From Ditylenchus dipsaci (Eukaryota; Nematoda; Chromadorea; Rhabditida; Anguinidae), in NCBI GenBank assembly GCA_004194705.1, contig SADC01001072.1, positions 62,001 to 126,000 of the forward strand: a DNA stretch of 64,000 nucleotides. Reading direction: 5' to 3'. The notes beneath the pieces are model-generated. The model saw nothing but the letters and a program-made list of their open reading frames with translations. It searched no databases and was not told the DNA's origin. This document shows positions 35,708 through 55,228 of the stretch, piece after piece; the first letter of the stretch is position 1; each line of letters begins with the position of its first letter. A program made the translations under genes and the position numbers.

Positions 35708-36164
35708 TAGTATAGAGCCAAGTCTCACTGAATACTAGAAAGTCGAAAGTTCCACTGGATTACCACTAGAAAGCCAGTTTATTAAGAGTTACCATTGTTA
35801 ATACTGTGAAAATTTCAATTTTTGTGGCAACTGAGAGGAAGTTTGTGGTACTTCAATAGGGGCTGGTTACATTGAGCTGAAAAAATTACCTGTGATGTTT
35901 AAAATAGTTCACACAACACTCTAACAACCACAATGATTTCTCCTCAAACTGATTAGAATAAAACGTACATGGGTGAAGTGTCTAAATCGCTCGTTTTAGT
36001 TCGCTTTATTCGATAATACATAATTTACACTTTTCATATATACAGAACCAAAAATTGCACTAGCTGAATCTTTTTTCCCATTCATAGTTGTCGGTAGTAA
36101 CGATGCCATTTGTAGTTGGAACTAAATAAAGAGAACTTTTTTTACCAACTACAACGAATCTCAA
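35708..36164. other. no gene seen
   Basis: Unassigned AT-rich sequence downstream (on the minus strand) of the kinase-like gene. Confidence 0.3.
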
Positions 36165-37365
36165 AATTTTACTTCGTCAATTAAGCTGCCAAAGAAAGCA
36201 TAAGGAACGTCACACGACACAGCAATGGAATCAACCTTTCTTATCATGTTCTCAAAGGTCATCCAGAGAGACGATGGCAGACTGGACCCAAAAGCTATCC
36301 TTAGCTCTCTCTTCTGACGATAGGCATCATTTCGATCTAAAAAATTGGTTCATAAAGAAGGTGAAAAGATTGAAATAATTACCTTTTGAAGTGTCCAAGG
36401 CAAAGATCCGGATATGAACATTATTGACATATATACTCAAGACTCGATACCATCACGTCTACCCGAATCGAAGCCAGCATGTGCCCGAAGAGAAGCATAA
36501 TTTCTATTTCCCTGCCATCCGATTATGCCCTTGTGACTAATCACGTTATTGAACTAAAACGTTTAAAATTTAATCTCTAGAAAAATAAGAACTGTAATTC
36601 CCTTACTCTTACACAAAACAGTCTTTTGTTTTGGAAAAACCAATAATGTAGACTAGCTTCTTTTTTCATAGCGACCAATTGCAAAGTTTGATGGCCTAAT
36701 CACCTGATGCACATGTAGACAAGTATCATGAAGAGCTTGAATGGCCTGAAACTCCAAATTATTTGCAAAGACGAGAGCCAAAGTTCTAAAGTCACCATTA
36801 AAGTCTGTCTCGCAAAGTGTAACGCTGTGCACAACAAGAACTTTGAGTTCGGTATATTTCATTGAATTTTCTTCAGATCGTCCCCCAGTTGCTCCATTAC
36901 GAGAAAGCGATAAGAGTCGAAAGAACCCTAAGGCAAATTATCAAAAATAAGATAAGCTAGAAATAGAATAAGTTCACACAGTCAATAAACATTGCAAAGC
37001 AGTTGCAGTCTTTGCGGTTAGCCACTTGCAGTAGATTTACAACGTTTCCAAACTGCTTTCTCTAGAGTTGCATAATTTGATCACTGCTTGCTGCGATTTA
37101 CCACTAAATTATAACCATCGATTCACCTGTGTAAAAGTCACAAGAATCTTACCTCTTGCTATATCTGGATGAATAGATATTCGCAAACGAACCTTGCTTG
37201 ATGTGTTCCACCAGGAGAAAATTGGTTCCTGAACAGAACAAACGCTAAATTTTTTTTAACAACAATTTATGAACCTGTAGATGGGCTTCTAAGCACATCA
37301 CCCAGACAAGCTTTTTTCTCTTCCTTTGGAGGAGCTGCTTTCAATCTTGCGACAAGGGCACCCAT
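36165..37365 (-). pseudogene. CK1/VRK-type protein kinase, degenerate, catalytic Asp absent
   Basis: Minus strand. Exon 37275-37365 (MGALVARLKAAPPKEEKK) joins in phase to 37153-37228, giving LLVEHIKQGSFANIYSSRYS, a glycine-rich loop. From 36927, GSFDSYRFLVMEQLGDDLKK matches the hinge/alphaD of CK1 and VRK kinases. Then ALHDTCLHVHQVIRPSNFAI aligns with the catalytic loop, but HRDIKPSNF has become HQVIRPSNF, so the catalytic Asp is Val. Later NYASLRAHAGFDSGRRDGIE matches the SINAH...SRRDDLE segment, followed by an in-frame TGA, then SGSLPWTLQK, and LPSSLWMTFENMIRKVD toward the end. At least two frame changes and one stop. It is a pseudogene, or a pseudokinase with assembly indels. The family assignment is good; CK1 versus VRK is open. 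Confidence 0.7.
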
Positions 37366-37449
37366 AGTTTAGGAGACTGCAAATTTGAGGAATGAATGAT
37401 GACAAGTCAAATTATGGCTTTTGATAGTACGATTTGCAGGTAACGCAGG

Positions 37450-37700
37450 GCACGGTTTGCATGAGCTCACAACATAGTGAGCTCATCCTCATGAGGACCG
37501 ATTCTCACGTGAGCTCACCTCACGTGAGGAGACCTTTTTGAAATTCTCACGCAACCTCACGTTGAATGAGCTCACGTCGTCCTCATCCTCATGAAGTTGA
37601 GGACAAGATCTTGTCCTCATAAATTATCATGAGAACCCTTAAGCTCATGAGAATTTTGATCTCATGAGGATTTCATGATCTCATAAGAATTTAATAAGCT
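37450..37700. repeat. array of GAGCTCA / CTCATGAG palindromic words
   Basis: Dense imperfect repeats of TGAGCTCA, CTCACGTGAG and CTCATGAG. Each unit is itself near-palindromic, so this can fold extensively. Confidence 0.75.
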
Positions 37701-38246
37701 CACGAAAGTGCTTGTTTTGCTTTGTCTTAAACGAAAACTTGAACTGCAGGCTGAATTTTTAGGAGTCCTGTATACGGTTATCTGACATTAGCGCGCCGAC
37801 ATTTGCGCGCCAGAATACATTTTCATATCTGGACTTCAATTAAACCACCTAGATAGCAGATGAACCACCAGCTCAGTAATCTTTCATCCAAACAAGTACA
37901 TGAACCATCGGGTTAGTAGGCGGATAAACTAAATTTAACTTTGAGTCAAGCGGTTTTATGTGTGTACCTCATCCAAAACCATGAGCACTATTTAAAAGAC
38001 CAAAATGAATTTTTATTAGACAAATTACCAGTGGACTCGGGACAGACCCTTCCCGGACTAATAAAAAAAGAAAAAATTGCCACTTAAAGTGATGAAAATG
38101 CTGGTCAATTTCTCAAAATGACCTGGCAATTGTTTGGAGCCAAATGGCGACTTATCCGAAATAATCAAGCTAAGATTAATATGCTATTTGAAAGAGGAGA
38201 TGCAGAGCTACAAAATGGTATTAAATATTTGTTGATGTCTACACTG
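37701..38246. other. no gene seen
   Basis: Unassigned, AT-rich. Confidence 0.3.
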
Positions 38247-38254
38247 TTTTAAGA

Positions 38255-38929
38255 GGCTAGGAGACATTGGCAAAAACGACATTCGCCCAAACGACGTTTG
38301 GGCGAATGTCGTTTGCCCAAACGACGTTTGGGCAAACGACATTCGCCCAAACCACATTTGGCAAAACATACTAAATATTTGGAAACAATTAATGACGGAA
38401 CCATCTGTCTGTCTGATTCCACTCGTACCATATTCACCGGTCCACCACACCAACTACATCCAATTTACATTCCCAACACGTCTGACACTCCAAGCATCCA
38501 TCTAGCTACAGATTCTAGTTGCCAAATTCTGGCCAGTTGTTCCAATCAGACCAATGTCAAATTACTGAATCTATCAGATTTGGATAAAAAAGACAGAAGC
38601 TTGGAAGTCTCGGATTGAGACTGCTATCGAATGAACCCCAGCAATTCAACGGTAGCCAAATGTCGTCTTGCCAAATGTCGTTTGGGCAAATGTCGTTTTG
38701 CCAAATGTCGTTTGGCAAATGTCGTTTTGCCAAATGTCGTTTGGGCAAATGTCGTTTTGCCAAATGTCGTTTGGGCAAATGTCGTTTTGCCAAATGTCGT
38801 TTGGGCAAATGTCGTTTTGCCAAATGTCGTTTTGCCAAACGTCGTTTGGGCAAATGTCGTTTTTGCCAAATGTCGTTTGGCCAAAAGATACGTTTGCCAA
38901 ATGTCGTTTTTGCCAAATGTCTCCTAGCC
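38255..38929 (+). mobile_element. MULE-like element with CCAAATGTCGTTTTG arrays and captured exon, copy 1
   Basis: Termini GGCTAGGAGACATTGGC and GCCAAATGTCTCCTAGCC. Short left array (38270-38355) of CAAACGACGTTTGGG units, long right array (38650-38925) of CCAAATGTCGTTTTG/CCAAATGTCGTTTGGG. Between them is a 290-bp segment (38357-38645) shared with copy 2 at 50946. Left flank is ttttaaga (38247-38254), right flank is ggtttatc (38930-38937); these do not match each other but match the flanks of copy 2 crosswise. Translations of the array itself are artefacts. Confidence 0.9.
38363..38616 (+). pseudogene. captured coding fragment, unidentified protein
   Basis: Open frame with ordinary codon use reading KYLETINDGTICLSDSTRTI, ... 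SCQILASCSNQTNVKLLNLS. The alternating beta-like pattern hints at a WD40-type propeller but I do not recognise the gene. The second copy at 51001-51320 extends further (DLRLPNRPIHIVKPLFDSAG). Confidence 0.5.
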
Positions 38930-38940
38930 GGTTTATCAAG

Positions 38941-39394
38941 GGCTATAAGTAGTTTACGCCCTCAAAAAACTGATTTACGCCCTCAAAATACTGGTTTACG
39001 CCCTCAAATCTATGTATTGCCATTTTTTGTCAAATTTTTGTTGCCACTTTTCCAATATTTTTACACCAGCATGTAGCCCTGAATCTTGGCTTTCTAACAA
39101 GCTATTGACTGATTTTCTGAGATTCAAAAAGCTGGAGAAAAAAGTCTTTGTATGGAGCAAATTTTTCTAAAAATTTGGTCTATAAATTGACTTTTTTCTC
39201 CAATTTTTTGATATCTCAGAAATTCAGTCGATAGCTTGTTGAAAAGCCGAGATCCGGGGCTACATGCTGGTCTAAAATATTGGAAAAGTGGCAACAAAAA
39301 TTTGACAAAAAATGGCAATATATAGATTTGAGGGCGTAAACCAGTATTTTGAGGGCGTAAATCAGTTTTTTGAGGGCGTAAATCAATTTTAGCC
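38941..39394. mobile_element. MULE-like element with TTTACGCCCTCAAAA arrays, 10-bp TSD
   Basis: Termini GGCTATAAG and TTTTAGCC; mirror arrays of three TTTACGCCCTCAAAA units; inner arms with TGTAGCCCTGAATCTTGGCT (39071) and inverse. TSD gtttatcaag at 38931-38940 and 39395-39404, exact. It inserted one base from the end of the 38255 element. Confidence 0.9.
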
Positions 39395-39413
39395 GTTTAT
39401 CAAGTCACATTTT

Positions 39414-40212
39414 GGCTGTAGGAACTTTCGTAACAAGACAATTTCGTAAAAGCGAACTTTCGTAAGAATTTTTTTCGTAAGAGCGAAAATTCGTAAGAAA
39501 CTTTTTCGTAACAGCGAATTTTCGTAACAAGCTCTTTCGTAACGCGGTTTTCAGTAACATTAGTGATATGTTAAATTGCTTTTTTCGCTTTTTGATCCTC
39601 CTTTGATGTTTCTTATAGCTTCTGTGATGTTTGACAGAAAATAGTCAAGAAAAAAAATGAAACAGTCAGAGGGTGGAATCGAACCACTGGTGAAAAAAAT
39701 TCATCCCATCAACTTACCTACTGCACCATACATGCCACTAATTTCAAACAGCTATGCGTAGTATATAATATATAAATTCGAGCTCGGAGTTTTTCACCAT
39801 GCTTTGGGTATTTCTGCTGGTCTCCTAACGGATGAAAAATCGGGCGTCAACTAATTATCAAAATTTTCAGTCATATGACCTATGCTTAGCAACTTTTGTG
39901 CTCATACATTTAATAGTCATATAATTAACTGCTCGAAGTGTCAAACAGTGACAGAAAGGCCAAAACAAATGAATCAGATGAAATACTGAATTAGAAAAAT
40001 TGAATAGGAGTGAAAAAAATTTCGATTATTTCCTCTTACGAAAGAAATTCGTTACGAAAATTCGCTGTTACGAAAAAGTTTCTTACGAAAATTCGCTGTT
40101 ACAAAAAAGTTTCTTACGAATTTTCGCTGTTACGAATATGTTTCTTACGAAAATGTTTTTTCTTACGAAAGTTCGCTCTTACGAAACTTCGCTCTTACGA
40201 AATTGTCTTCGT
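39414..40212. mobile_element. element with TTCGTAAGAGCGAA arrays
   Basis: GGCTGTAGGAACTTTCG then an array of TTTCGTAA(c/g)AGCGAA (39425-39560) with a mirror array at 40030-40208. The right terminus is shorter than the left. The centre includes a tRNA-like sequence on the minus strand. Confidence 0.8.
39663..39740 (-). other. tRNA-like sequence, probably SINE or tRNA relic
   Basis: On the minus strand, box A-like GGTGCAGTAGGTAAGTTGA and a paired T arm GTGGTTCGATTCCAC, but no acceptor stem. It shares TTCGATYCCACCCTCTG with the sequence at 29107-29125. Confidence 0.4.
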
Positions 40213-40403
40213 GAAGAATGTCTAAATAAATATGAAGGATTTGATAATTGCACTGTTTTATTACATCCATATTTTTTCTTAGGTTATTCCGTCTTACAAG
40301 TCTGAAAACTAGGAAGTTTGGCTATTGAAAGCAAGAAAAATATGGTTTAATTTTTAACTTGCTGGGACTTTACAATTTACTTGACGATCGATCCTTTTTT
40401 CAG

Positions 40404-41480
40404 GAACCGAATAAGTTTGCAAACTTCGATCCGTTTGGAGGTGGCGGCGGCTACAGCAAGCAGCCTTCGTTCGCCGGTAATTCCAAAGCTTCGAAGGACG
40501 AGACCAAGCTCTTTATTGGTGGACTGGCTATGGTGACTAACGAATCGTCTCTCAGCAACTTCTTCTCACATTTCGGACAGGTTGTGGATTGTGTTGTGAT
40601 GCGAAATGAGGAGCAGCGTTCCAAAGGTTTCGGCTTCGTTACACTGGCTTCCAAGGATCAGGTTTTATTTCATGATCTAAATGACTTCAATTTATCTAAT
40701 ATTCTTTATTTTTCTAGCTTACGGCCGCTCTGGGTGCTCTTCCGCACACTATTGATGGCAAGGTGGTTGACTCGAAAGCTGCAGTTCCTCGTTTTGCTAA
40801 TCGATCTTCTACTTCGTCTAGCATGCATGATGTTGGTTCCAATCGTCTCTATTTGGTGGGTGTCACTCCCGAGCATACCGAAGGCCTAATCTCCAATTAC
40901 TTCGGGAGTTTCGGAAGCGTCACTAAGGTTTCTTTTTTGGCACAGGTAACGAACAAGCACCCCAAAAAATCAATAGGGGGGACCAAGGCAAAAAAATTTA
41001 AAAATAAAAACAATCAACAGGGGGGACCAAGGCATCTTTTTTTTTGCCTTGGTCCCCCCTATTGATTTTTTTGGGTGCTTGTTCTTTACTCGAGTGGGTG
41101 CTTGTTCTTAACCTTGGCCCTTTTTTTCTGGTAACATATTCTTAAAAAATGGTTCTAGGTCGACATTGTCAAGGACGCGAGACTGGCATGCCGCGTGGCT
41201 TTGCTTTCGTGCATTTCGTTGATAGCAGTTCAGTGACAAGTGCTTGGCGCAGCCTTCTCACAACATCGGAAACAGTCAGTGCTCGGTCAGAAAGGCAGTC
41301 AACAAGAAGAATTTGTCAAGTTATCAGCAACAGCAGGTTGGTTCTGTCGCTCGAACTCCAAAGACTCGAGGTGCCTTCCGCAGTGAGCCGTATCCTAGTG
41401 AAGAAATGCTGGTTACAACAATCAGACTTATGGCTCTCTTGCTGGTGGTGCTTTTCCTGGAGGTATCCAAGTGTTTGCTG
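40404..41480 (+). CDS. hnRNP A/B-type protein with two RRMs, 5' end missing and frame-broken
   Basis: Exon 40404-40661, after TTTTTTCAG, starts EPNKFANFDPFGGGGGYSKQ and gives RRM1 with RNP2 KLFIGGLA and RNP1 SKGFGFVTL. Exon 40718-40945 completes RRM1 (GKVVDSKAAVPR) and opens RRM2 with NRLYLVGVTPEHTEG. The intron 40946-41158 holds a hairpin with CCTTGGTCCCCCCT. From 41159 RRM2 continues VDIVKD..RETGMPRGFAFVHFVD and, after frame changes near 41176 and 41243, QCSVRKAVNKKNL; a Gly-rich YGSLAGGAFPGGIQ lies near 41430 in yet another frame. Order and motifs match hnRNP A1/A2 or DAZAP1-like proteins, which bind pre-mRNA in the nucleus. No start codon exon was found upstream. Confidence 0.8.
40955..41115. 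repeat. hairpin with GCCTTGGTCCCCCC
   Basis: CAATAGGGGGGACCAAGGC (about 40972) faces GCCTTGGTCCCCCCTATTG (about 41045) in the hnRNP intron. Related GCCTTGGTCCCCC words occur at 7566 and 35443. Confidence 0.75.
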
Positions 41481-41616
41481 TGCGCTTGCCTTTGGAAGTG
41501 CGGCTGGATGTTTACGCATTCATATCGTTTAACAGGAAACAATTCACAGATCATGCGAAGCTATCTGTTCGATATGTGAATGTCCAGGCAGGCTTTAAGA
41601 ATGCAATTATGATGAA
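41471..41616 (+). CDS. F-box-like fragment
   Basis: Frame reads VFAVRLPLEVRLDVYAFISF then NRKQFTDHAKLSVRYVN, with the LPLEV...DV..F pattern of an F-box, ending at gtaact. It follows the hnRNP Gly-rich part directly; whether it belongs to that transcript or to the next gene is unclear. Confidence 0.4.
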
Positions 41617-41735
41617 GGTAACTGATTTATTACATGAAGGCATATTATCAGGAAGCTCAAAAGTTGATAAGATTGATGATATTTCATAGATGGGTTTTTG
41701 GATTTCCTACCTTGTTATTTTTGACTCTATGTGAC

Positions 41736-42400
41736 ATGGCTGCACGTATTCCAAACGAAACTTTCTATGATATTGTCAAGTTTCTTGACAAACAAAGCTG
41801 CCTGAATCTTTTGTTTACATCGAGAACCCTCACCACACTTGCCCTTCAACGCCTTGAGTTTCTTCTGCTGAATACTGTACACTACTATATTTTTCTAGTG
41901 TGATCCAGTGTGTTAATAAGACAATTTACAGAAAAAAGACGTGCACTACAAAAATATTCTCCTGAAGATAAATGCAATGTTCACAGATGAATCTTTCACA
42001 GCTGTTCATTTCGAGGCAGTAAAAAATTTGTGAGCTATTCTCAAGTTTTGTTCACTAGCAAAGTCTAATTATCTTTTACAGGCCCATTTGTTCAGCGGTA
42101 TTGTTTCATTCCCGATTGGCCATGGTCAACTGGCTCCTTATCCCGAATATGCCGTCGTAGAATTCATCAAAGGTATCAAGCAGTCTACATCAGTGTGCTT
42201 AGCCTTTGGTCCAGGTCGTGATAGAGCTTTTGCTGGCGCTTCAAGAGCTATATTCAAGGTGTATTCCAATGCCGCAGTTGAAGGACAACATATGTGGCTG
42301 CTTGATTTTATGGGGAGTTGTTCAGTTTCGCTGATGAAAAATGATTTTCAATTTCTTTTTCAGCTGATGAAGGCCTTCCCATCTATCAGCTCTGCCTGAA
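41736..42400 (+). CDS. F-box protein (N-terminal F-box)
   Basis: Exon 41736-41876 encodes MAARIPNETFYDIVKFLDKQ then SCLNLLFTSRTLTTLALQRL, a clear F-box (binds SKP1 in SCF ubiquitin ligases). It joins in phase across a 55-bp intron to 41932-42029 (KDVHYKNILLKINAMFTDES). A third candidate exon from 42082 (AHLFSGIVSFPIGHGQLAPY, then ...AFAGASRAIFKVYSNAAVEG) is coherent but its phase does not match the previous donor. No substrate-binding domain is recognised. Confidence 0.6.
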
Positions 42401-43366
42401 CATGTCTGGAATGATCTAACGCTATCTTCTCTATGTTGTATATTACCGATATTTCTTCACAGCTTGTGTTGTACACCATATTCATGCACTTTCATTCTAT
42501 GTTGCGAGGTCAATAAAACTACTTATTTCCATTTGGTTTATAATGCCTTGACTTGATTTTTGGTAAGGGAAGCGGAAGCTCTTGACAAAAAAAAGTGTCG
42601 GCGTTTCTTCGCTCCACCCTGCACGTCCCCCGAATAATTTGTTGACTTAGGTTTAGGTCCTAGGATTAGGCTTGTAGTATAAATTAAAAATTATTTATTT
42701 AAATGTAAGAGTTGTCATAAATTAGCTTAAATTGTTAAGATGCATATCAGAATACAATAATTAGAAATAATATGCATATTGTGTATGTTTGCATATATTG
42801 GCTCCAGACACTGTGGCAAACAGACAAAATCTAGGCTCTTCAAATGGATACTGTCCGTTTGCTCCTTAGTGGATGTGTTCGCAAAAAGTCGTCTCGCGGG
42901 ATCCATTCCAGCTGTTTTTGTGCCTAATATAGACACTGCCATATTATTTGTTAGGTTTGCTATAATGACTAACCAAAAGCAAGTTTTCTTTCCTCTTTTG
43001 GGGTACACCATCCATCAATTTGTTGACGGCACCAGCTCCCTGATCCACAACATTGCACATGTTGGCTAGCAATCTCTTTTTTAGTCTCGTTGTTTGAATA
43101 AATTGAAAGGGATTCGCGGGTAAAATGACTGAAGAGGCATTGGAAGAGTGCAGGCTAAATTAATTTATCATTTTCTACATTTCTTTAAAGGTTCACTTCA
43201 TTAAGGCTTGAAAAATTGGCCTCGCTGGCAACGTGCGTAAGCGTTTGTATTTTTTCAAAAACTCTTGGACTTTGCCCTTTATCTACTGGCCATTCACACA
43301 CCAAAGCTTAAACCAATTTCATCCAATAAAGGTGCTATTGGTCAAGTGATCGCACTGAGATAGGGC
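42401..43366. other. no gene supported
   Basis: AATAAAAC at 42511 may be a polyadenylation signal for the gene upstream. Open stretches 42727-43069 on both strands overlap and match nothing I know. Confidence 0.35.
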
Positions 43367-43374
43367 TATATGAG

Positions 43375-43956
43375 CATACTTGCACGGGCGCCGGCGCCAG
43401 CGCCGGTGTGCGCCCAGAAATTTTTGAAAAAATTAGGGCGCCGGCGCCGGCGCTGGCGCCGGCGCTCGGCGCCGATTTTAATACAGCCCGGCGCCCGGTT
43501 CGGCGCCCGGTGCTTAATTTCAATACAGCCCGGCGCCCGGTTCGGCGCCCGGTGCCTAATTTTTCCACATTTTTCTCTTCTTTTATAACATCTTAGTTTA
43601 AAACAAGCTTTCTCTTTTTGATCGATTTTTTTCTAACTGGTAGTTGAGTCATAGTTGTTTTCTATTCAGCGTTTTTCTTCAATTTTAATAAACTAAATCT
43701 TTTACTAGTATATAATTCACTTATTTAAAGCTCGGCGCCCGGTTCTGCGCCCGGCGCCAATTTTTTGGGATGCCGGCGCCCGGTGCTGCACTCGGCGCCC
43801 ATTTTTCGGGATGCCGGCGCCCGGTGCTGCGCTCGGCGCCCAAAAAAGAGCCGGCGCCGAAGGCGCCGGCGCCCGGTTCTGCGCCCGGCGCCAATTTTTT
43901 GAGATGTCGGCGCCCGGTGGTGCGCCCGGCGCCCATTTTTTTCGCGTGCAACTATG
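43375..43956. mobile_element. hAT-like element with GGCGCCCGGTTC arrays, exact 8-bp TSD
   Basis: Termini CATACTTGCACG and CGTGCAACTATG; GC-rich arrays 43385-43560 and 43730-43935. TSD tatatgag at 43367-43374 and 43957-43964. A half-copy with the same terminus (CATAGTTGCACGC) starts at 45647. Confidence 0.88.
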
Positions 43957-44062
43957 TATATGAGTAGGGGAACATTAAGTGGCGTAAAGCCAGCTTTGAA
44001 AAAAAAATTGACCGAGTATACGTTTTTTTCCCTGGGTTACCAAGGTCAACGATTTTAAAAGG

Positions 44063-44425
44063 GTGTCCAAATACCTTAAAAGATGGATTTTGAACAAAGT
44101 TTTATTAACTGGGGCCTACCGCATAAAGAAACTCTGGTATGCATACATTTTTATGCATCCAGAGTCATTTATAAGAAAGTTATATCTCGTCTCAAAGAAT
44201 GCTCAGCTTTATTGTTTACATCAAATATTTGGTCAGATCCAACAGATGTTTTCATCAGGTTGAATAATATACGTTTTTAGAAGTTTTTATTTACTGTCTA
44301 TTATCTAAGTCTGACAGCTCACGGGATCAATACTGAATGGAAGCGCCAAAAGTTTGTGCTGTGCATGCGTCATCTTCCCGGCAGCCAAAACTCTCAATCT
44401 ATTAGTGTGTATCTATTCATGTGTT
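44063..44425 (+). pseudogene. hAT-family transposase remnant
   Basis: ISRLKECSALLFTSNIWSDP (44188 on) and YLSLTAHGINTEWKRQKFVL (about 44303) followed by CMRHLPGSQNSQSI match the conserved FTTDxWTS...Y.SLTAHyID..W....VL block of hAT transposases. The sequence linking the two halves is short and contains a stop, and the C-terminal dimerisation region is not seen. This is the only hAT protein relic in the window and could once have served the hAT-like MITEs. Confidence 0.7.
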
Positions 44426-45087
44426 TTCAACATTTGAAGTTCTCTCTTAGAAGTCCATTCTCCTCTTCCAAAGCGCTCAAATTCTCACCTTCACGTCACA
44501 TAAGCTTGTTTATCGAGAAAGGTGGACAAGAAGATCAGCAAGTCAGTAACGCAATGATTGAAATGAAGGCTTACAAAGGCGCACAGAAGCGTGAATACCC
44601 TTTTATATGCAAATCGACAATGATAAGACAAGAGTTCGGTGTCACAATCAAACTTTTTACTAGCAAGGAAAATTGCGTTATAACTTATATACTGATTTTG
44701 CATAATTTATCGCAATTATATAATAAACTCTTGTTGTATTTTTTGCCGAAATTTTGTTTTTCCATTTTCTTCTGACCATTTATCTAGAAATGATTTGTAC
44801 GCAGAGCTTTGGATATTTTAATGCTGAAAACAAGGATATCCAACAACTGGATCTTTGAGGAAAAGTCGTAAATTCTCTGTGAAACTTTGATCACTCTGCT
44901 GCAACTTTGGGCACAAATGACAGCTCTGATCACAGTCTGCATTTCAAGATGTTTTTTGCTCTGTTGGAGTTAGAATATACGGGAAATCCACCTGAAAGAA
45001 GTTAAAAATTTAATGATCTGAAATTTCACATTTTCGCAAGTTTCAAATTGCCCGGATCTCCTTACTTTCAATTGTAATTTTGAAAAT
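44426..45087. other. no gene supported
   Basis: Open reading to 44775 continues from the hAT remnant but shows no recognisable hAT motif. The rest is unassigned. Confidence 0.3.
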
Positions 45088-45345
45088 ACCGTAAAATCTC
45101 TAATTTAAGACAACAACCCCCCCCCTCTCCTGGTTAAAAATCATGTTTCAGGCATTGCGTTTTCGACCCACTTTTTGAACACTGCTTTCTTGCAAGTTAC
45201 CACTCATTTCGTAGCCAGTGATATGAGCTAAAGAATAAGGTATAACTTGCCTGAGAAAACTTTTCGAAAAGTGGGTCAAAAACACATTGCCAAAACACGA
45301 TTTTGAATTAGGAAGGGGGATGCTTAAATTAGAGGTTTTACGGTA
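45088..45345. mobile_element. MITE with TACCGTAAAATCTCTAAT termini
   Basis: TACCGTAAAATCTCTAATTT at left; AAATTAGAGGTTTTACGGTA at right. Inner arms: GCATTGCGTTTTCGACCCAC versus its inverse near 45280. Confidence 0.8.
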
Positions 45346-45646
45346 AATTGCATTATGGTGTTCAGCGTGAAGTTCTGCACCACCATCAACAAAAATCACC
45401 ACCCGCTTTTCTAGTGTTAAACTATTAACTATTGAAATATTTTACCAATACATATTCTATCAAGTAAACTCTTTTCATCAATGTCCAAGCATGCTTAAAA
45501 AGGGATAAACTGTTGAAGTATTTATTATTAACACCAGAAAGGCGGATAGTGATTTTTGTTGATTCTGTTCAACCAAAAAGATTTAACTAAAAGCTGAACC
45601 AAGCGCTGAAAAGGGGAACAAAAAAGAGAAGATACATAAGGACCAT

Positions 45647-45812
45647 AGTTGCACGCAAATTTTTTTGGCGCCGGCACCGGCGCCGGGGTTTTCAAAAATG
45701 GGCGCCGGCTATTCTGGAGGCGCCGGAACCGGTGCCAGGTTTTTCAAAAAATCGGCGCCGAACGCATCACGTGGCGCCGGTCATTTTTTTGGCGCCGGAC
45801 GCCGGAAAAATC
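45647..45812. mobile_element. half copy of GCGCC-array hAT-like element
   Basis: CATAGTTGCACGCAAATTTT then GGCGCCGG units; no mirrored terminus on the right. Confidence 0.6.
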
Positions 45813-46784
45813 TAAAAGTGACTAAAAATATTTGTTTCACAAAAAGTTTGTTTTTTCATTATCGATAAGAAAAGTGACATGAATTTATCTTTCTCTTGTT
45901 ATACAAAAACATGGTTATACATTTTCACAATTGTCGATGCGTTAGACTTTTTCCTTCAGCTGTTTGCATTGAAGTAATATACACGTGCAAATCACAGCTG
46001 CTGTGCTTGCACAAATAAACAACATGTCATACGCTAGCATGGCCAGTGATAAGTCAAACCTGTCGTTTTCTAGTCATTTCGAATCACTCCAAAGAGTACA
46101 CATACAGACGAAAGAGAAGTGTCCCTCGCCAATAAAACTTTGCACATGCCACTGCGCGCAAAGAATATGGTTCTTTAAGGAATTAATAACAACCAAACGA
46201 ACAAAATTTTAGCACAGAAAAAAAATTGAGTTTTTTTCGAAAAACGTTGTTCATACAAAAATATGTACAAAAAGTGTGAAAACGGCGTTTATCAGTAAAC
46301 GGTTTATACTGTTCGACAGAGAAAAAGAACTGCACCAGATAATTTTTTAAAATAATCTAAAACCAGGCTTTTGAGCGTTAAGCAAATGTTCAAAAGTATA
46401 TTCCAAAAAGCATCTTGATCTAAATCTTCGATTTTGCTGCATAAACCTCAACTTCTGTCGACCCCGATTTAAACAGGAAGCAGTCAAGAGATTCTGTGAA
46501 AAAGAAAAAAAATTTCGAACCACAGGGGGTGTCATGGTTCTTTGTCAAAATTTGAAAATTTTGAATTGGCGCTTTTTTAATTTTTAAGGGAATAAGGGCT
46601 GTATTAGGAAGGGAAGGGAATAAAAGGGGGCCACTTTCATGACAGAGCATTAAAAGAGTAAATGTTTGTATTTTTCGAGTGTCTTACCATGTTTTTCAAC
46701 TAGGCCGTGGCAAAAAGACACTCTATATCCATTTTATGATCAAGAGTACTTCTCGGAATCACTAAATTTTTCAAATTATGACAA
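45813..46784. other. no gene seen
   Basis: Unassigned AT-rich sequence. Confidence 0.3.
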
Positions 46785-46856
46785 AGCCCGGCGGCGCCAG
46801 GCGGCGCCGCCGGGCTTTTTCAGAAACGGCGCCAGCGCTAGTGGCGTTCTATAGTG
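46785..46856. repeat. GC-rich hairpin, AGCCCGGCGGCGCC
   Basis: AAGCCCGGCGGCGCC and GGCGCCGCCGGGCTT form a tight stem; then GGCGCCAGCGCTAGTGGCG. Likely another GCGCC-type MITE without visible termini. Confidence 0.6.
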
Positions 46857-48121
46857 CCAAATTTTTGTCTGTTTTTTTTCCTTTAGGCGGATTAAAAAGG
46901 TCAATCCCTCGTGATCGATGGATTTTATATATGTCCAAAAACTAAGTGCTGATTGAGGTGTGTTGATGATATGTGGTGCTGTTACCGAAAGAGAATGAGT
47001 ATGTTGTGTTGAAACTAATAGAGTGCCTTTTCGTCATTCTTAAAACTTAATGGTGTGGAACTTTATATGCGCATCGCTTATTGTCGAAAGATCAAGTCCC
47101 TCTGGGGTATTTTGATTTGTTTTTTTTTCACTAAGTTTTCTAACTATAAGGCCAAAATTTATCGAGCAATTGATTGCAACCATCTACAGCACTGCTTTGC
47201 TGTCGGCAACTGCCTCAATCTTGCAATTTTGGCAAATGACCACCAAAATTATAGGAAACTAGCCAAAATGATGCGTACTTAGACTAATATAGCCTGAGCC
47301 TCCGCCAATTTTATTTATTTTCTCACATGTTTAGTAACTTACTGGAGTCAGAACTTCATAGGGAACAAGATAGAAATTTTACACACCAAAATCACTTCAT
47401 AAAAGCAAGGTAGCTAGTGAATGTGGTGAAGAAGCTAGATAGTGAAAAAATGAGTACTATTGAAAGCTAGGATTTCAGTATTATTTAGGAAATGTTTTTT
47501 TCTCGTGATTTCAATTTATATGGTTTTCTACAACTGTATGTTCAAAATGACGGCAAGAAGTCGGGCTACATTTTGAGTGTGAGGTTGAAAAGTACTGGGA
47601 TAGTAGGCGCTACTGGAGTATACCCCCCCCCCACAAATGAAATTTTTTTAAAAGTGTTTCCAAACACTCTATATCGACCTAAAATGGCCTCAGAAACTCA
47701 AAAAAGACATTATTTTTGTGTTCTAGTCAATAAAAAATTGAGTTTTGGGACCACCCAAAAATACCTATTTTGACCATTTTCGAATGGATATAGGGCTGTA
47801 TTGAGGTAGATATGGACGAAAAAAAAGACGAAGGATGTCAAAAAGTGCGATGGTGACTAATTTTTTGCAAGATTTTTAAACTTCAAACCTAATTTTTTAA
47901 GCTATTTTGATAGCAGCTCAATGTTGATGTCATATCACGGCGTAAATAATAGCACCTAAGATACAAATTGAGATGTGGAGGGCTAAATTAGATTGATTGT
48001 AAGTAGTCGAAGTGGTCCATACAAGCTCTACACCGAGTTAATGGTGCTTAGTACCCAGGTAAAAATACTCAGGCAGTAATCGCGATTTATGGTTACTATG
48101 TGATGAAAAACCACTTAGTGG
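46857..48121. other. no gene supported
   Basis: Open stretches at 47055-47282 (SNYKAKIYRAIDCNHLQHCF) and 47492-47773 have no recognised family. Confidence 0.3.
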
Positions 48122-48266
48122 TACAGTCGAACCTGGATATAAGGCCACCTTGAGACGAATGAGTTGGCCAGCAGAGAAACTAGCTATAGTTCACCCTCGA
48201 TATAAAGCCAACAACCTACCCCCCCCCCTCCAGGGGGGTATGCCTAGGTGGAGGTATCTGACTGTG
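48122..48266. mobile_element. pogo-like MITE
   Basis: TACAGTCGAACCTGGATATA at left; GAGGTATCTGACTGTG at right, with CTCGATATAAAGCCAAC internally. Confidence 0.7.
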
Positions 48267-48339
48267 AGTAGATCCAGGTGAAGGGGCACTTACGCACTTC
48301 GAGGGCGCATTTTATAATGATTTAAGAAAAGTATTTAAA

Positions 48340-48745
48340 CATCTCCTAAGGAGAAAGTCGTACATCATCGAGAAGGCGTCCAGCTACAAAGCGCGCTTGA
48401 TGTCTCGATTGCCATCAATCCCTTACTCGAGCTTCTTGCATTTGAAGGCACCTAAAACATACAAGAGAAAAAAAAGCAAAAGACGGCAGAAAATATAACA
48501 AAACTTATCTAATGAAAACACTTCGAGTGGTCAGCTACCAAGTAGAGGCTCAAAAAACGTAAGACGTGCAAACTGTGCACAGAGTAAAAACAGAAAAACG
48601 TACCTACACACACATAGAAATCTCATCGAGATATTCAGCAGGTAAGATTCTTTTCGCTTCATAACTCGTTCTTCTCGACGCTTTTCGCAGAGACCTAAAA
48701 TACACAAGAGAAAAAAGCAAAAGACGGCAAAAATGTGATAGAAAC
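48340..48745 (-). other. possible exons with a duplicated splice-acceptor block
   Basis: On the minus strand, TTGCCGTCTTTTGC...TTTTTCTCTTGT...TTTTAG occurs twice (about 48698-48750 and 48452-48505), each time as a good acceptor followed by an open stretch (CEKRREERVMKRKESYLLNI in the first). This looks like a tandem exon duplication but no protein family is recognised. Confidence 0.3.
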
Positions 48746-49295
48746 TTATCTAATTGGAGGTATCGTATTTATTTATTTGAGCAGAGGCTGTAAATGCATA
48801 ATAATAAATCATAGTCGAAATAGTAATAATAAAAAATCACTAACAGCTTTAGACTCCAACAAGTCCAGCCATTACAGTCAACTGGACGATTCCTATGAGT
48901 ACACCGAGAAAAAAACAAGCGAGAATATGAGCACACCAAAAACATTCAAAATGATTTTAAAAACGATTTTGAAATTCAAATCTCTGGCGTGCCTGGTACC
49001 CGCGAATTTGAAATGCACGAGTTATTCCATCGGCGCGAGCATGCCCCTTGAACAACGGTTGATTGATTGATCAGTCTCAGCCGGTATTTGTAGCGCCAGT
49101 GACCCTTACTTTAATTTTACTTACCTCGCGGCTAACGATTCCAAGAAAGATAAATGGGAATAAAACCACCATCCTATACAAAAAGATGTGAATCTAATGC
49201 AGTTCAATAACCTTGAAAGTCAATAACCAATAACCTCTTTGGAGGTGGGGCCTTATTAGAAGATATACGGTAAGCGCATCAGATTCCAATGCATT

Positions 49296-50012
49296 GCAAT
49301 GAGACAATTGTGTCCGAGTTGTACATAAGGGACAATTGTGTCCGATTTTATATAGCGACTGATTGTGTGCGACTCGCATGGTCCATGTAAAAATCTAATA
49401 ATTTATGTTTCTGTCTACAATGTCATAGGATTTATTGATGTCTAAAGGACGTGTTTGTGCGCATCTCAACTCTAAGTCCTCAAGCCTAAACAATTAAAGA
49501 TGCTCGCATTCACTCACTTACCTTAGGCATAATTTTGAGCAAGGCACTTGACCATAAGTGCATTTAGAGCATGGATCCCATATCTACTTATTGATAAGAA
49601 TTCTACTTATCTCGGCACCCCGAATTATTATTTCGGCACTCTAAAATTATTCGAGAGCTACTGTTCTTTTGTACCGAAAATCTTAGTTTTTTTGAAAATA
49701 TAATCTTTTAAACGAAAAATCTTAGTTTTTGAAAAAATCTACTTATTTAAAAAAATTATTGGATCCCTGATTTAGAGGCTCTTTTTGCCCAACTCCAACG
49801 ACCAAAACATGGTGGAATAGCTAATTTGATTAATGACTTTTGATTTTTATAGATGTTTAGGATACAATCAGTCCTTTTACTGCCGGACATAATTATCCCT
49901 TTCACACTAGCCGCACATAATCGGTCGTCTTATACTAATCGGACTTAGGTGTCCCTTTCATATATCCCGGACACAATCGGCGCCGGACACAAATGACACG
50001 TACCGGACTCTG
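49296..50012. mobile_element. element with GGACACAATCGG arrays
   Basis: 49300-49378 carries GACAATTGTGTCCGA units; 49885-50005 carries the mirror CCGGACACAAT units. Ends are not resolved. Confidence 0.6.
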
Positions 50013-50041
50013 CAATAGCAACTGCATCGTCTGAGTTGAAT

Positions 50042-50560
50042 AGAACAGTCACAGTACCATGAATGGCCACCACGCGGGTTCATCATCTCTTCCAAGCTTC
50101 TTCTGAGGCACCATCAGTGCAAGAGATAAAGACTGAAATAATTAGCTTTTTAATTGAGACAAAGAATAATACAACAGTCACAGTACCATAGATGATCATC
50201 ACGCGGTTTCAGCATCTTGATTCACTGAAGCTTCTCCTGAGGCACCACCTAGAAGAGAGATAGAGAGACTGAAACAATTACATTTTACTTCAGACACAGG
50301 AGAATACAAAGTCACAGTACCATGAGGCCAGCACGCAATTTCAGCATCTTAATTCTCTGAAACTTCTCCTGAAGCACCACCGAGTAAAGAGAAACTGAAA
50401 CAATTACATTCTTTTTTGAGACATAGAAGAATACAATAGTCACAGTACCATGAATGGCCACCACGCGGTTTCAGCATCTTGATTCTCTGAAGCTTTTCCT
50501 GAGGCAAAGCCAAGAAGAAGAGTGAGAGACTGAAACAATTAAATGTTTCATTGAGACAAA
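50042..50560 (-). repeat. four tandem ~130-bp exon-intron-like units
   Basis: Copies begin (plus strand) at GTCACAGTACCAT near 50048, 50177, 50311 and 50439. Read on the minus strand every copy has acceptor (T)TTTCAG, a 74-82 base exon-like block containing CCTCAGGAGAAGCTTCAG, then ATG|GTACTGTGACT as donor, separated by ~53-bp intron-like spacers. The exon lengths and frames vary, so it may be a decayed multi-exon gene. Confidence 0.65.
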
Positions 50561-50655
50561 AAAGATTTTTGATGTTCCATTAGTTTTGATGTTCCATTAG
50601 AGCTACAACGACGAGGACAGTGTGTTTGCGACACAAAATTGAAGCGTTAGTATTA

Positions 50656-50857
50656 CAGTCAAACCTTGATATAACCAACCCTTTATACAACGAAACTCTT
50701 GCTATAACGTAACTCTTGATATAAAGAACATTTTTTGACGCCTATTAGCCAGTGATCACGTTAAACAACTAATAGTGTATCCTCGATACAACGAAACCCT
50801 CAATATAACGAAAATTATAACCGATCAGGGGTTCTTTATATCGAGATTTGACTGTAT
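50656..50857. mobile_element. pogo-like MITE
   Basis: TACAGTCAAACCTTGATATA at left, TATCGAGATTTGACTGTA at right. Confidence 0.8.
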
Positions 50858-50945
50858 TGTAACTACGACTGCGCCATTTTATCTTTGACGCATCGTCTAA
50901 TCGAAGCTTACGGCTTTTTAAAAAATGCTGTCTTTGTGGTTTATC

Positions 50946-51620
50946 GGCTAAGAGACATTTGGCAAAAACGACATTTGCCCAAACCACATTTGGCAAAACA
51001 TACTAAATATTTGGAAACAATTAATGACGGAACCATCTGTCTGTCTGATTCCACTCGTACCATATTCACCGGTCCACCACACCAACTACATCCAATTTAC
51101 ATTCCTAACACGTCTCACACTCCAAGCATCCATCTAGCTACAGATTCTAGTTGCCAAATTCTGGCCAGTTGTTCCAATCAGACCAATGTCAAATTACTGA
51201 ATCTATCAGATTTCGATAAAAAAGACAGAAGCTTGGAAGTCTCGGATTTGAGACTGCCTAATCGACCAATTCACATAGTCAAACCATTGTTTGATTCGGC
51301 AGGTGGGGTTGATGAGAATAAAAAAAGTTTAGTGTATTTTTATTATATGATTGTCTGGGTCTTATTATCAAACGTAATCGCTAGAACCCCTTCTTCTCTT
51401 TCTTATCCTTTATTTAACAAAGCCACAACAAATTAACATTTCAGACATCATCAAAATCCATCTAAACGCCTATCTAGCTATCTTCTTTCTAAATTACTAA
51501 TTAATCAGTGTATCGAATGAACTCCAGCAATTTAACGGTAGCCAAATGTCGTTTTGCCAAATGTCATTTGGCCAAAAGATACGTTTGCCAAATGTCGTTT
51601 TTGCCAAATGTCTCCTAGCC
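50946..51620 (+). mobile_element. MULE-like element with captured exon, copy 2
   Basis: Same termini as 38255 (GGCTAAGAGACATTTGGC and GCCAAATGTCTCCTAGCC), same orientation. Arrays are shorter and the captured segment longer (about 50985-51535), including an apparent intron-like AT-rich stretch ending AACATTTCAG near 51445. Left flank ggtttatc (50938-50945), right flank ttttaaga (51621-51628). Confidence 0.9.
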
Positions 51621-51635
51621 TTTTAAGAAAGGACA

Positions 51636-52262
51636 ACACTTTTTTCTCCGACTAAAACACTTTTTTTTTCCGACTAAATATTTTTTTTCCGACTAATTTC
51701 ATTTCCGACTAAAACACTTTTTTCTCCGACTAAAATACTTTTTTTTTCCGCCTAATTTACTCTTTTTTCCGACTAATTTTGATTCTCGACACGAAATCAA
51801 CCATTTTTAAAAAATTTTGTGTGAAATTCAAGGGTGGGCAAAGACCAGATGGCTGGAGACCCACTCCGGAATGGCCAAAAGGCCAAAATTATTGGTTTTT
51901 TGGGGGTTTGCTAAAGGGGAGTAAACTTTTCGAGAAAAACCGATTGAGCGGATCAGATTTGGGGTCCGATAGGCTTAATCGCTCAGAATTCCAGGTTTAT
52001 GGTGGTTTTAAGTGGTTCAGGGTGGAGTTGTGGGCGATTAAACCGATCGGACCCGAAATCTGATCCGCTCAATCGATTTTTCTCAAAAATTTTACTCTCC
52101 CCTTTAGTAAACCCCCAAAAAACCAATAATTTTGGCCTTTTGGCCATTCTGGAGAGGGTCTCCAGCCATCCGGTTTTTGCCCACCCTTGAATTTCACACA
52201 AAATTTTTTAAAAATGGTTGATTTCGTGTCGAGAATCAAAATTAGTCGGAAAAAAGAGTAAA
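51636..52262. mobile_element. foldback element with TTTTTCCGACTAA arrays
   Basis: Array of TTTTTTCCGACTAAAA units 51645-51780; short mirror ATTAGTCGGAAAAAAG at 52238. The core 51865-52155 (CGATTGAGCGGATCAGATTT and inverse) is homologous to the core of the 2896-4165 element. Confidence 0.8.
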
Positions 52263-52547
52263 GACACCCGATATTAGAGGAAATACGGTAAGTGCCCCTC
52301 ACACTCCCGCGATAAAAAAGTCGCGAGACAAATTTCAACCGGCTTGAAAGGCCGTGATATAACGGCACTTCTTGACAATTGGATAAATCGGAATTTAAAA
52401 AGAATTTGTCTTGCAACACTTTGGAGAATACGACAAAAAGTTTTTTGGAAAATTACATAGTATGTAATAGGTTAGATGTAATATGTATAGATATTATCTT
52501 ACCCATCCATAGTGGTTCTGCTGAATAATTCTTTGTTAAATTTTTTC

Positions 52548-53595
52548 TGGTTCTGTCTGGGTTAATGTCAATTTTGTGCCGCTAATTTTGTGCCGACAGA
52601 TTTTGTGTCACTATAATCTCAAGCTTTCAGGTTATGTGACCTTCAATGGTTCTTCACCATTTTTACTAGTCCAGTAGCCCTCATAATGGAAGCGGCAGTG
52701 AATTCCCCGTGCGGCAAATTCGGGTGGTATTTCTTTTTGGCCATATTATTCTTAAGATCTATTGGTCTTGCGATATTGTGGGGTGCCTCAAAAGGGGTTG
52801 CCAAGATGCAAAAGATAAAGTGTCACAAATGAAGTCAAAACCACCTGAAACCATCCAAAACTACCCCAAGCATTTCAACCACCCGAAACACCCAGGTGTT
52901 GATACTCAGGTAGTGGTCCTCAAGTAGCTGTTCCTGGGTGGTGCTACTTCGGTGGTGGTACTCATGTAGTGGTATTATGGTGCGTCAAGCAAATTGGCCC
53001 ACACACGAATTGGTCTACACTTTGTGAATTCGTGCATTTTGAAAATTTTGTGAGAATTTTAATTTATTAGTCTGAACCAGCCAAACCAAGTGGTCGTCCA
53101 CTTGATTTTTTACGCAATTTTTTCACGTTTTAATGTTCCAAAACCTGTTTTCTGGACTAACTTGGGGCATGCTGAAGATGGTTTGATAATAGTAAAATAG
53201 GGTTTTTACGGTATTTTTTAAGTATTGGGAAATAATTGAATTTACCAAAACTCGATTTTACCACAACTCGAAAAATACATGAGGAAACGGCATTTTACCA
53301 CTGTCAAACCATCTTCAGCATGCCTGAATTAGTCCAGAAAACAGGTTTTGGAACTCGAGAAACATGAAAAAATTGCGTTAAGTGGATGACCACCTGGTCT
53401 AGTTGGTGCATGGATTATCCAATAGAACTGAGGTTGAATTTAAAAAAAAATTTAAATACTAGGAGCTCTTGACAAGACAAAAAAGATAAATTTGAAGTTA
53501 TGGCGGCAAAAAGTTGGTCGGCATAAAATTGGTCGACACAAAATTGTCGACACAAAATTGGCGGAACAAAATTGACGGCACAAAATTGACCGGTA
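52548..53595. mobile_element. element with CAATTTTGTGCCG arrays
   Basis: Left end GGGTTAATGTCAATTTTGTG with GCCGACAGATTTTGTG; right end has five mirror units GGCACAAAATTGAC. Nested within is a palindrome at 53085-53400 (AAGTGGTCGTCCACTTG; CATGCTGAAGATGGTTTGA and inverse). Confidence 0.7.
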
Positions 53596-53715
53596 CCGTT
53601 CCTATCTTTTAAAAATTTGAAGTTGTGTTCAATTGCAATTCTCTGCTGGTGCGTTCATTTCAGGCACAGTCACAGTGGCGCATGAACCCACACCTACAGT
53701 GTGGCTACCCTCTAT

Positions 53716-54492
53716 GGGCCGTATCAAATGAATGAGGTTATATATGGATTTTTATATACTCTTGACATTTCTTTGGTCTTTTTGTGCTTGCTTTTATAAA
53801 TTCCTCAAGCAGTTCTTTTTTGTAAATGATAGTCCGCTCTTCATACTAGCATACACAAGTAAAACAATGCAGGTTGCTAAAAGCAGGTCAAGTTTAGAAA
53901 GACAATGAAAAAATTGAGGTTTTGGGGTATATACCCCCGAAAAATGGTCCATTTTCCAGGTGACGAGAATTTTCAAAGCTGACCGTCAATTGAAGCATAC
54001 CATTATTCTACGCCTCGAAAAACTACTTTGGGCAACAAAAAGCTTCGTAGAGAAATTTCGAGTTTTCGCCCAAAACGCGTTTTACCCATTTTACTTCTGA
54101 AAATCTCAAGGGTAAAATGGGTAAAACGTGTTTTGGGCAAAACCTCGAAATTTTTTTCTACTAAGCTCTTCGGCCTTTTGTTGCCCAATCTAGTTTTTCG
54201 AGGCCTAGAATATAATGGTACGCTTCATTTGACGGTCAGTTTTGAAAATTCTCGTCACCTGGGAAATGGACCAATTTTCGGGGTATGTACACCCAAAACC
54301 TCAATTTTTTTCACTGTCTAGCTCAACTTGGTTTGTTTTTAGCAACCTCCATTGTTTGACTTGTGTATGCTAGTATGAAGAGCGGGCTATCATTTACAAA
54401 AAAGACCTGCTTAATTGATTTAGAAAAGCAAGCATAATAAGGCCAAAGAAATATCAAACCCATACCCTTATTCATTTGATACGGCCCAATGT
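53716..54492. repeat. long palindrome, ~380-bp arms
   Basis: GGGCCGTATCAAATGAATGA at left, mirrored at 54470-54492; arms share ACTAGCATACACAAG, GGTGACGAGAATTTTCAAA and TTTTGGGCAAAACGCG-like stretches; centre near 54100. Divergence of roughly 10% by eye, so not brand-new. Confidence 0.85.
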
Positions 54493-55228
54493 GAGCACAC
54501 ACTTTTAGCACGCTCGAACCGCATTGTTAACAGGAGTGCGGGTGTGATACTATGAGTTATTGTGAACGTGGCTAATGTGAACGTGGCTATCCCAGAGGGT
54601 TCCGTTATATAGAAGTTTGATTCTATAGCCATTATGAAATTTGATTTTCTTTTATTTGTATGAACAACATTCAAATGGAAACAGGTTCATAACTTGCAGC
54701 TGAATTCTGATCATCCATGCATGAGAATTATTACTTCTCTCTGAAATCCACCTATTGCTTAGGGTTGAAGTATCCTTGAGATATATCACCGAATTCTAAA
54801 TATAAATTTTATTCTAGAAGTCGAATTCATGATTAGCGTGGAACAATTTTTGAGCCCATCTTAGAATCGGGTGCGCTTTTCGCCTTGACCCTTTTGTTGC
54901 TTTTTGGCTTATGATTATGCGCAGGGTAGCCCATCATATGTCATAACTGACTTAAACTGTTCGACTGTTTTCCCAACAAAAATATCTAGAAAAACATATT
55001 TAAGTAATTTTCAAGACTGGCCTACTCTACGCCTAGGCACAAGCCAAAAGAACAACAATGAAAGAATACCGTCCCTACGAGATGGCCATCACTAGGAACT
55101 GGTTGACCAGCATAACCCTACTAATTTTAAAAGGTATAATGATAGTGTCATTAAAAGCATAACCAACGCTATAATTAAGAGTGTAAATAGGTGGGAAAAG
55201 ATAGCGGAAAAAAGTATTTTCCAGATAC
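54493..55228. other. no gene seen
   Basis: Unassigned; open stretch 54904-55095 has no recognised product. Confidence 0.3.

Follow-up and report, generated by a model that had tools for sequence, protein, structure and literature searches.

How do two copies of one repeat, lying about 12 kb apart in the same orientation, come to carry each other's target duplications? This question is raised by a locus of the nematode Ditylenchus dipsaci, within a stretch of 64,000 nucleotides (assembly GCA_004194705.1, contig SADC01001072.1, positions 62,001 to 126,000) that we call the window. The repeat, here named E, is a short element that we take for a non-autonomous DNA transposon, and the segment between its two copies carries a gene of the heterogeneous nuclear ribonucleoprotein (hnRNP) A type. 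We consider it probable, with real room for doubt, that the 12-kb segment was excised by end joining, likely as a circle, and then recombined into an E already resident at the present site. The paired copies and their flanks are the following.

38247..38254, plus strand: outer 8-bp duplication of site a, left copy, TTTTAAGA
38255..38929, plus strand: repeat E copy 1, with ends GGCTAGGAG...CTCCTAGCC, lacking a 245-bp segment that is present in copy 2
38930..38937, plus strand: inner 8-bp duplication of site b, right of copy 1, GGTTTATC
50938..50945, plus strand: inner 8-bp duplication of site b, left of copy 2, GGTTTATC
50946..51620, plus strand: repeat E copy 2, in which the 245-bp segment is complete
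51621..51628, plus strand: outer 8-bp duplication of site a, right copy, TTTTAAGA

Re-reading the sequence bore out the coordinates, the common orientation, the length of 675 bp for each copy and the four flanks given in the original prediction. Copy 1 stands between TTTTAAGA and GGTTTATC, and copy 2 between GGTTTATC and TTTTAAGA; the target duplications are thus exchanged between the copies. Each crossed pair of flanks is alike at 8/8 bases, where the identity stops, while the two flanks of any one copy mismatch at 5/8, and the earlier statement that neither copy has matching flanks of its own is correct. Two random 8-mers from the window match with a probability of 5.1e-5, and two such matches are expected with a probability of ~2.6e-9, a figure that assumes random window draws and precedes any correction for the post hoc choice of the arrangement.

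Flanks of this kind are unusual for E. The assembly that we searched (226.98 Mb in 1,359 contigs) contains at least 202 matching pieces of the family, and 32 other copies from the top of the match listing served as a comparison set, with both ends present in 27. Exact 8-bp duplications of their own are kept by 18/27, which makes the exchanged flanks of the window pair stand out. Another four (L079, L092, L097 and L098) have one mismatch, two (L081 and L089) have flanks clipped by the extracted range in which the 6 letters present agree, and two (L080 and L094) agree only with a one-base shift or indel, leaving L082 as the sole bounded copy with non-matching flanks. E normally generates 8-bp duplications, and clearly mismatched flanks are rare in the family. 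All copies read are short and without a transposase. The 8-bp duplications and GG...CC ends are insufficient to fix a superfamily, and the earlier label of a Mutator-like element ("MULE-like") has no transposase evidence behind it.

Each of the two targets was also found once where E is absent, in related loci (paralogous or repeat copies) and not in alleles. Site a lies in a miniature inverted-repeat transposable element (MITE), and a second such element abuts it on the right.

38071..38254, unstranded: left outer flank, the arm of a palindromic MITE ("MITE3") holding site a, with 94-98% match to L070 (C865) and L071 (C931)
51631..52262, unstranded: MITE2, its right end apparently truncated, beside site a

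In both L070 and L071 site a is uninterrupted and reads CACTGTTTTAAGAAAAA. Site b reads GGTTTATCAAGT at L033 (C1295) and GTTTATCAAGT, one G shorter, at L034 (C949). Beyond copy 2, two further matching bases separate the duplication from MITE2, so that continuity with site a on that side rests mainly on the duplication; a GACACCC at 52263 is only suggestive of the end of the MITE that holds the site.

The paralogous loci on C1295 and C949 also reveal the order that the inner segment has outside the window, for which three features are needed.

40329..41529, plus strand: hnRNP A-type gene (RRM exons), matching RRM_1 and hnRNP A1/A2 structures, with paralogs on C1295 and C949
50566..50945, plus strand: X1, found on C1295 and C949 upstream of the hnRNP gene, where it contains some extra bases
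50567..50600, plus strand: possible joint scar, TTTTGATGTTCCATTAG twice in tandem, single in both paralogs

On both contigs X1 is followed by the empty site b, by 50-65 bases and by the hnRNP region, whereas in the window X1 lies left of copy 2 and the hnRNP region right of copy 1. Because X1 precedes the gene in the paralogs but comes last in the 12-kb segment of the window, the order of this segment is a circular permutation of that in both paralogs, and a joint must exist inside it. Upstream of X1, C1295 and C949 retain piecewise colinearity with each other over 2-4 kb, and the window departs from both at ~50,566. To the right of this point, 78/83 and 80/83 aligned positions match between the window and the respective paralog; on the other side the matches fall to 105/142 and 110/145, which is shuffle level (mean 0.75, with 0.88 the highest of 100 shuffles aligned in the same way with free ends), while C1295 and C949 still agree with each other at 161/188. 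The joint is specific to the window and has the 17-bp tandem duplication beside it. Short local duplications are typical of error-prone end joining, and the duplication may be a scar of that kind. On the gene side, similarity to C1295 extends to 43,261-43,266. Read in this way, the segment would combine ~11.6 kb from one side of site b with ~0.38 kb from the other. The proposal that the 12 kb once moved as a unit gains from the permutation against two paralogs and from this second joint, which together give a circle-like layout, but a physical circle is not strictly implied by them.

The sequences of the two E copies point to the way in which the segment entered. Copies 1 and 2 differ in the 245-bp segment, in their arrays and at single sites, and yet have a private tract in common, with six common states within 50985-51186. 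Three of these occur in no other readable copy (50,985, 0/32; 51,056, 0/31; 51,186, 0/28), two are otherwise restricted to L092 and L102 (50,993 and 50,995, 2/32 each), and one is found elsewhere only in L003 on C944 (51,139, 1/28 with a letter); L098 and L101 do not reach these sites. A 30-base junction variant in the common tract is present at these two places only in the assembly (at most 1 mismatch), and each copy also has one private state inside the tract, at 51,106 and 51,116.

Towards their ends the copies resemble different relatives. The junction of the 245-bp deletion in copy 1 is otherwise seen only on C944, the left (outer) 34-mer of copy 1 recurs exactly on C1324 alone and with one mismatch at two places, and at 51,214 copy 2 carries a base in common with the C1324 copy alone (1/28 readable). 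Markers beside site a, on both sides, thus appear to point to C1324, and the marker beside site b, to the right of copy 1, to C944. With end markers from two relatives, reciprocal exchange between different E copies is favoured over replicative cointegrate transposition, on few markers. Both routes had been put forward in the original prediction, and recombination of a circle into a resident E is the one that fits better. Reciprocal exchange between two different E copies, together with a converted central patch, is the explanation we favour because it would account for all the marker patterns at once, and later change could explain part of the differences between the copies. We had also considered C944 as a straightforward parent type of both arrays, which was dropped on inspection of the arrays, where only the deletion junction and one base hold.

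On the reading that we prefer, an E would have stood at site b (GGTTTATC), upstream of the hnRNP gene, and a second E of another subtype at site a (TTTTAAGA) elsewhere. A segment of ~12 kb would have broken out together with its E, reaching from ~0.38 kb beyond site b to ~11.6 kb on the gene side, and its ends would have been joined at the present ~50,566, most likely closing a circle. The E of the circle and the resident E at site a would then have undergone homologous recombination, accompanied by gene conversion of a central patch, leaving the segment in site a between two recombinant E copies whose target duplications are swapped. Closure of a circle at the joint and a subsequent crossing into the resident E is the simplest order of events.

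Several observations weigh against this account. The joint at ~50,566 is not the only change in similarity, as another is found at 50,038, at the left edge of a subrepeat region.

50038..50565, plus strand: about four tandem subrepeats of ~130 bp, ending at the joint

At 50,038, sequence common with C1170 gives way to these subrepeats, a change that may mark the edge of an array or, with lower likelihood, the joint itself. Colinearity on the gene side is patchy, with 41,467-42,577 lacking a counterpart in the C1295 stretch examined and C949 stopping inside the gene. Neither a source locus nor its scar was seen, and no empty allele was found: matches of 36000-38070 outside the window were repeat pieces among the 40 scored of 257 candidates, as were those of 52263-54600 among the 40 scored of 4,488, and the two sets have no place in common. 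The mosaic inference uses three end markers, the right array of copy 1 is unlike that of the C944 copy, the left end of copy 2 is uninformative, and the common central tract would also be compatible with descent of both copies from a single E. When 41467-50560 was searched for another copy of the segment or for its donor, the 40 candidates scored of 13,831 consisted of repeats and one colinear piece at C1295:637971, which would agree with a conservative move, or with loss of the source, without proving either.

The alternative that survives best retains the recombination between E copies and dispenses with the circle. A reciprocal translocation or inversion between two E copies would be followed by a second break and rejoining at ~50,566, or the segment would have been copied from a tandem array. 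This route leads to an identical final sequence, with inner and outer flanks as observed, and such an exchange is known from the Galileo inversions of Drosophila (PMC2775673). The separate second rearrangement, however, must break at 0.4 kb and at 11.6 kb from the same E, two distances that a 12-kb circle would give at once, and no array of the segment was present among the candidates scored for a second copy. We therefore regard a route without a circle as unlikely, though worth keeping in view.

The private central tract also bears on a composite insertion, in which E ends on sister chromatids would have inserted at site a before its replication, with re-replication of E and its flanks and joining of the broken ends at ~50,566. 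Maize Ac/Ds elements provide a precedent with a matching layout (PMC4270019), the outer duplication, the inner donor flanks and an internal joined junction are all present here, and the common tract fits two daughters of one E. Such copies would nevertheless be identical at birth, and the C944-type deletion and the base at 51214 must then have been gained independently or later. The process is, in addition, described for maize with paired reversed ends in the part of that work cited here (PMC4270019). A composite insertion at this locus is, in our view, quite improbable.

An assembly artefact, in which heterozygous material assembled from long reads would have been misjoined through E, comes next in order and we give it little credence. 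The published D. dipsaci draft comprises 227.2 Mb in 1,394 scaffolds from PacBio reads (mean 10.2 kb, 42x), against a genome of 160-170 Mb by flow cytometry (PMC6929663). It was built with Canu, Quickmerge and reference scaffolding, with 227 Mb assembled for a haploid size of 160-170 Mb (PMC6929663), and these points speak for such an error if the assembly is that draft. On the other side, E measures 675 bp against the mean read of 10.2 kb, provided that the assembly is that draft (PMC6929663), the window has 0 N, and the two copies differ by substitutions, an indel and array length. A linear swap between two loci would also scatter the flanks, and only a ring or a tandem array would be expected to return them 12 kb apart. 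Replicative cointegrate transposition of E from a circular donor matches the geometry and the common central tract, but the end markers of the copies differ, descent of both from one E would require that the same deletion arose twice (or came by later conversion) and that a substitution recurred, and we know of no replicative cointegrate pathway for such elements, all of which makes this the least credible explanation and a very improbable one.

Regarding the contents of the inner segment, the hnRNP label is supported by an RRM_1 match in Pfam (E-value 5e-13), and the earlier F-box and hAT labels obtained no Pfam support among the 10 reading frames tested of 63 listed. A second RRM piece of the hnRNP gene scores 18.2 bits, under the cut-off of 20.7, the structural matches are to hnRNP A1/A2 structures, and a Ditylenchus dipsaci protein matches the reading frame with 90% identity across 47% of the frame; identity to the paralogs is 92-95%. 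The gene region is split at ~40940-41120 by a ~183-bp palindromic high-copy element that is absent from either C1295 paralog, and with this element inside it the window copy may be a pseudogene. Further along, 43375-43956 is a simple insertion, a GGCGCC-rich element that is flanked by an 8-bp duplication of its own (TATATGAG) and has many close relatives, among them a copy on C1198 at 98%. Sequence related to the subrepeats at 50038-50565 seems to be arranged as longer tandem arrays on C170, C474, C1160, C1158 and C211.

Two more features separate copy 1 from the hnRNP region.

38941..39394, unstranded: MITE1, just inside copy 1, with GTTTATCAAG on both sides (read directly) and family copies found elsewhere
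39405..40210 (about), unstranded: inverted-repeat stretch between site b and the hnRNP region

MITE1 is missing from site b of L033 and L034. Since the paralogs have only ~50-65 bases between site b and the hnRNP region, the inverted-repeat stretch is probably another insertion. MITE1 and E lie at a near-identical target (GTTTATC; window 38931-38940 and 39395-39404), and the ends of both start with GGCTA, hinting at a related transposition machinery.

Two observations concern the E family itself. The inner unique segment of E (window 38334-38630 and 50966-51510) has a protein-like look and is present in many copies, with at least 3 different internal deletions. As a possible captured host sequence, it gave no protein relative at an E-value of 0.001 and no Pfam match. 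L080 (C452) and L089 (C822) have the same right flank, gatacccgcatc, which suggests a duplicated locus or uncollapsed haplotypes.

Reintegration of circles is often proposed to explain gene movement, and old events are hard to recognise. At this locus, the entry junctions can be placed with single-base precision and the closing joint with an uncertainty of a few bases. We advance only tentatively the wider proposition that the locus is a base-resolved natural record of a circle in an animal germ line, 12 kb long and bearing a gene, which polymerase-theta-like end joining closed and which re-entered by homologous recombination at a dispersed non-autonomous DNA transposon, with the exchanged duplications as its lasting mark. 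The signature of direct copies, exchanged duplications and a permuted segment can be searched for automatically, which would make the germ-line frequency of the process testable, and if our reading is true, exchanged duplications in direct orientation would offer a genome-wide census of past circle reintegrations in any genome.

The recombination process as such is already known, and it is the combination of exchanged duplications in direct orientation with a permuted segment that we regard as new, since our searches, which covered open-licence papers, gave no case of such duplications around a permuted segment; the exchanged-duplication cases that they gave were Drosophila inversions (PMC3355041 among them). 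The nearest transpositional look-alike is the composite insertion of maize Ac/Ds, which has outer 8-bp duplications, inner donor flanks and an internal junction formed through either end joining or homologous recombination, 4.8-18.9 kb being re-replicated at each fork (PMC4270019). The window resembles it in the outer 8-bp duplication, the element copy at each end, the inner donor flanks and the internal join. It differs in that existing Ac and fAc ends are re-replicated in maize, whereas the window copies appear to be mosaic.

Among recombinational events, the human extension of pseudoautosomal region 1 (PAR1) is an insertional translocation in which dispersed repeats recombined and for which gene conversion within the repeat has been proposed (PMC4222609), and both of these traits are paralleled in our reading of the E pair. 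There, the repeats are LTR6B copies on X and Y, and the passages cited describe no circular permutation (PMC4222609). Permutation was taken as evidence for an integrating extrachromosomal circle in region B of wine yeast (PMC3053389), as we propose here; the integration of region B is attributed to non-homologous recombination, and it exists in several permuted forms, whereas one copy was found here and its entry would have been by homologous repeats. In cattle, colour-sidedness is explained by serial translocation through circular intermediates (Durkin 2012, cited in PMC4222609 and PMC12235870), and on our preferred reading the window segment would likewise have been relocated through a circle, although at 12 kb it is far from the ~500 kb of the cattle segment and its entry point is a transposon pair with exchanged duplications.

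The closest parallel for the duplications themselves is a Galileo inversion of Drosophila buzzatii, in which exchanged duplications and mosaic copies were taken as proof of ectopic recombination (PMC2775673). As in Galileo, a single cut-and-paste element is present in the window as a pair of copies whose long ends are internally repetitive, the duplications are exchanged and the copies appear mosaic, the mosaicism being weaker here. The Galileo copies are inverted and their recombination gave an inversion, whereas the window copies are direct and enclose an inserted, permuted segment. In both systems, each target is found once where the event is absent, in chromosomes without the inversion for Galileo (PMC2775673) and in related loci for E.

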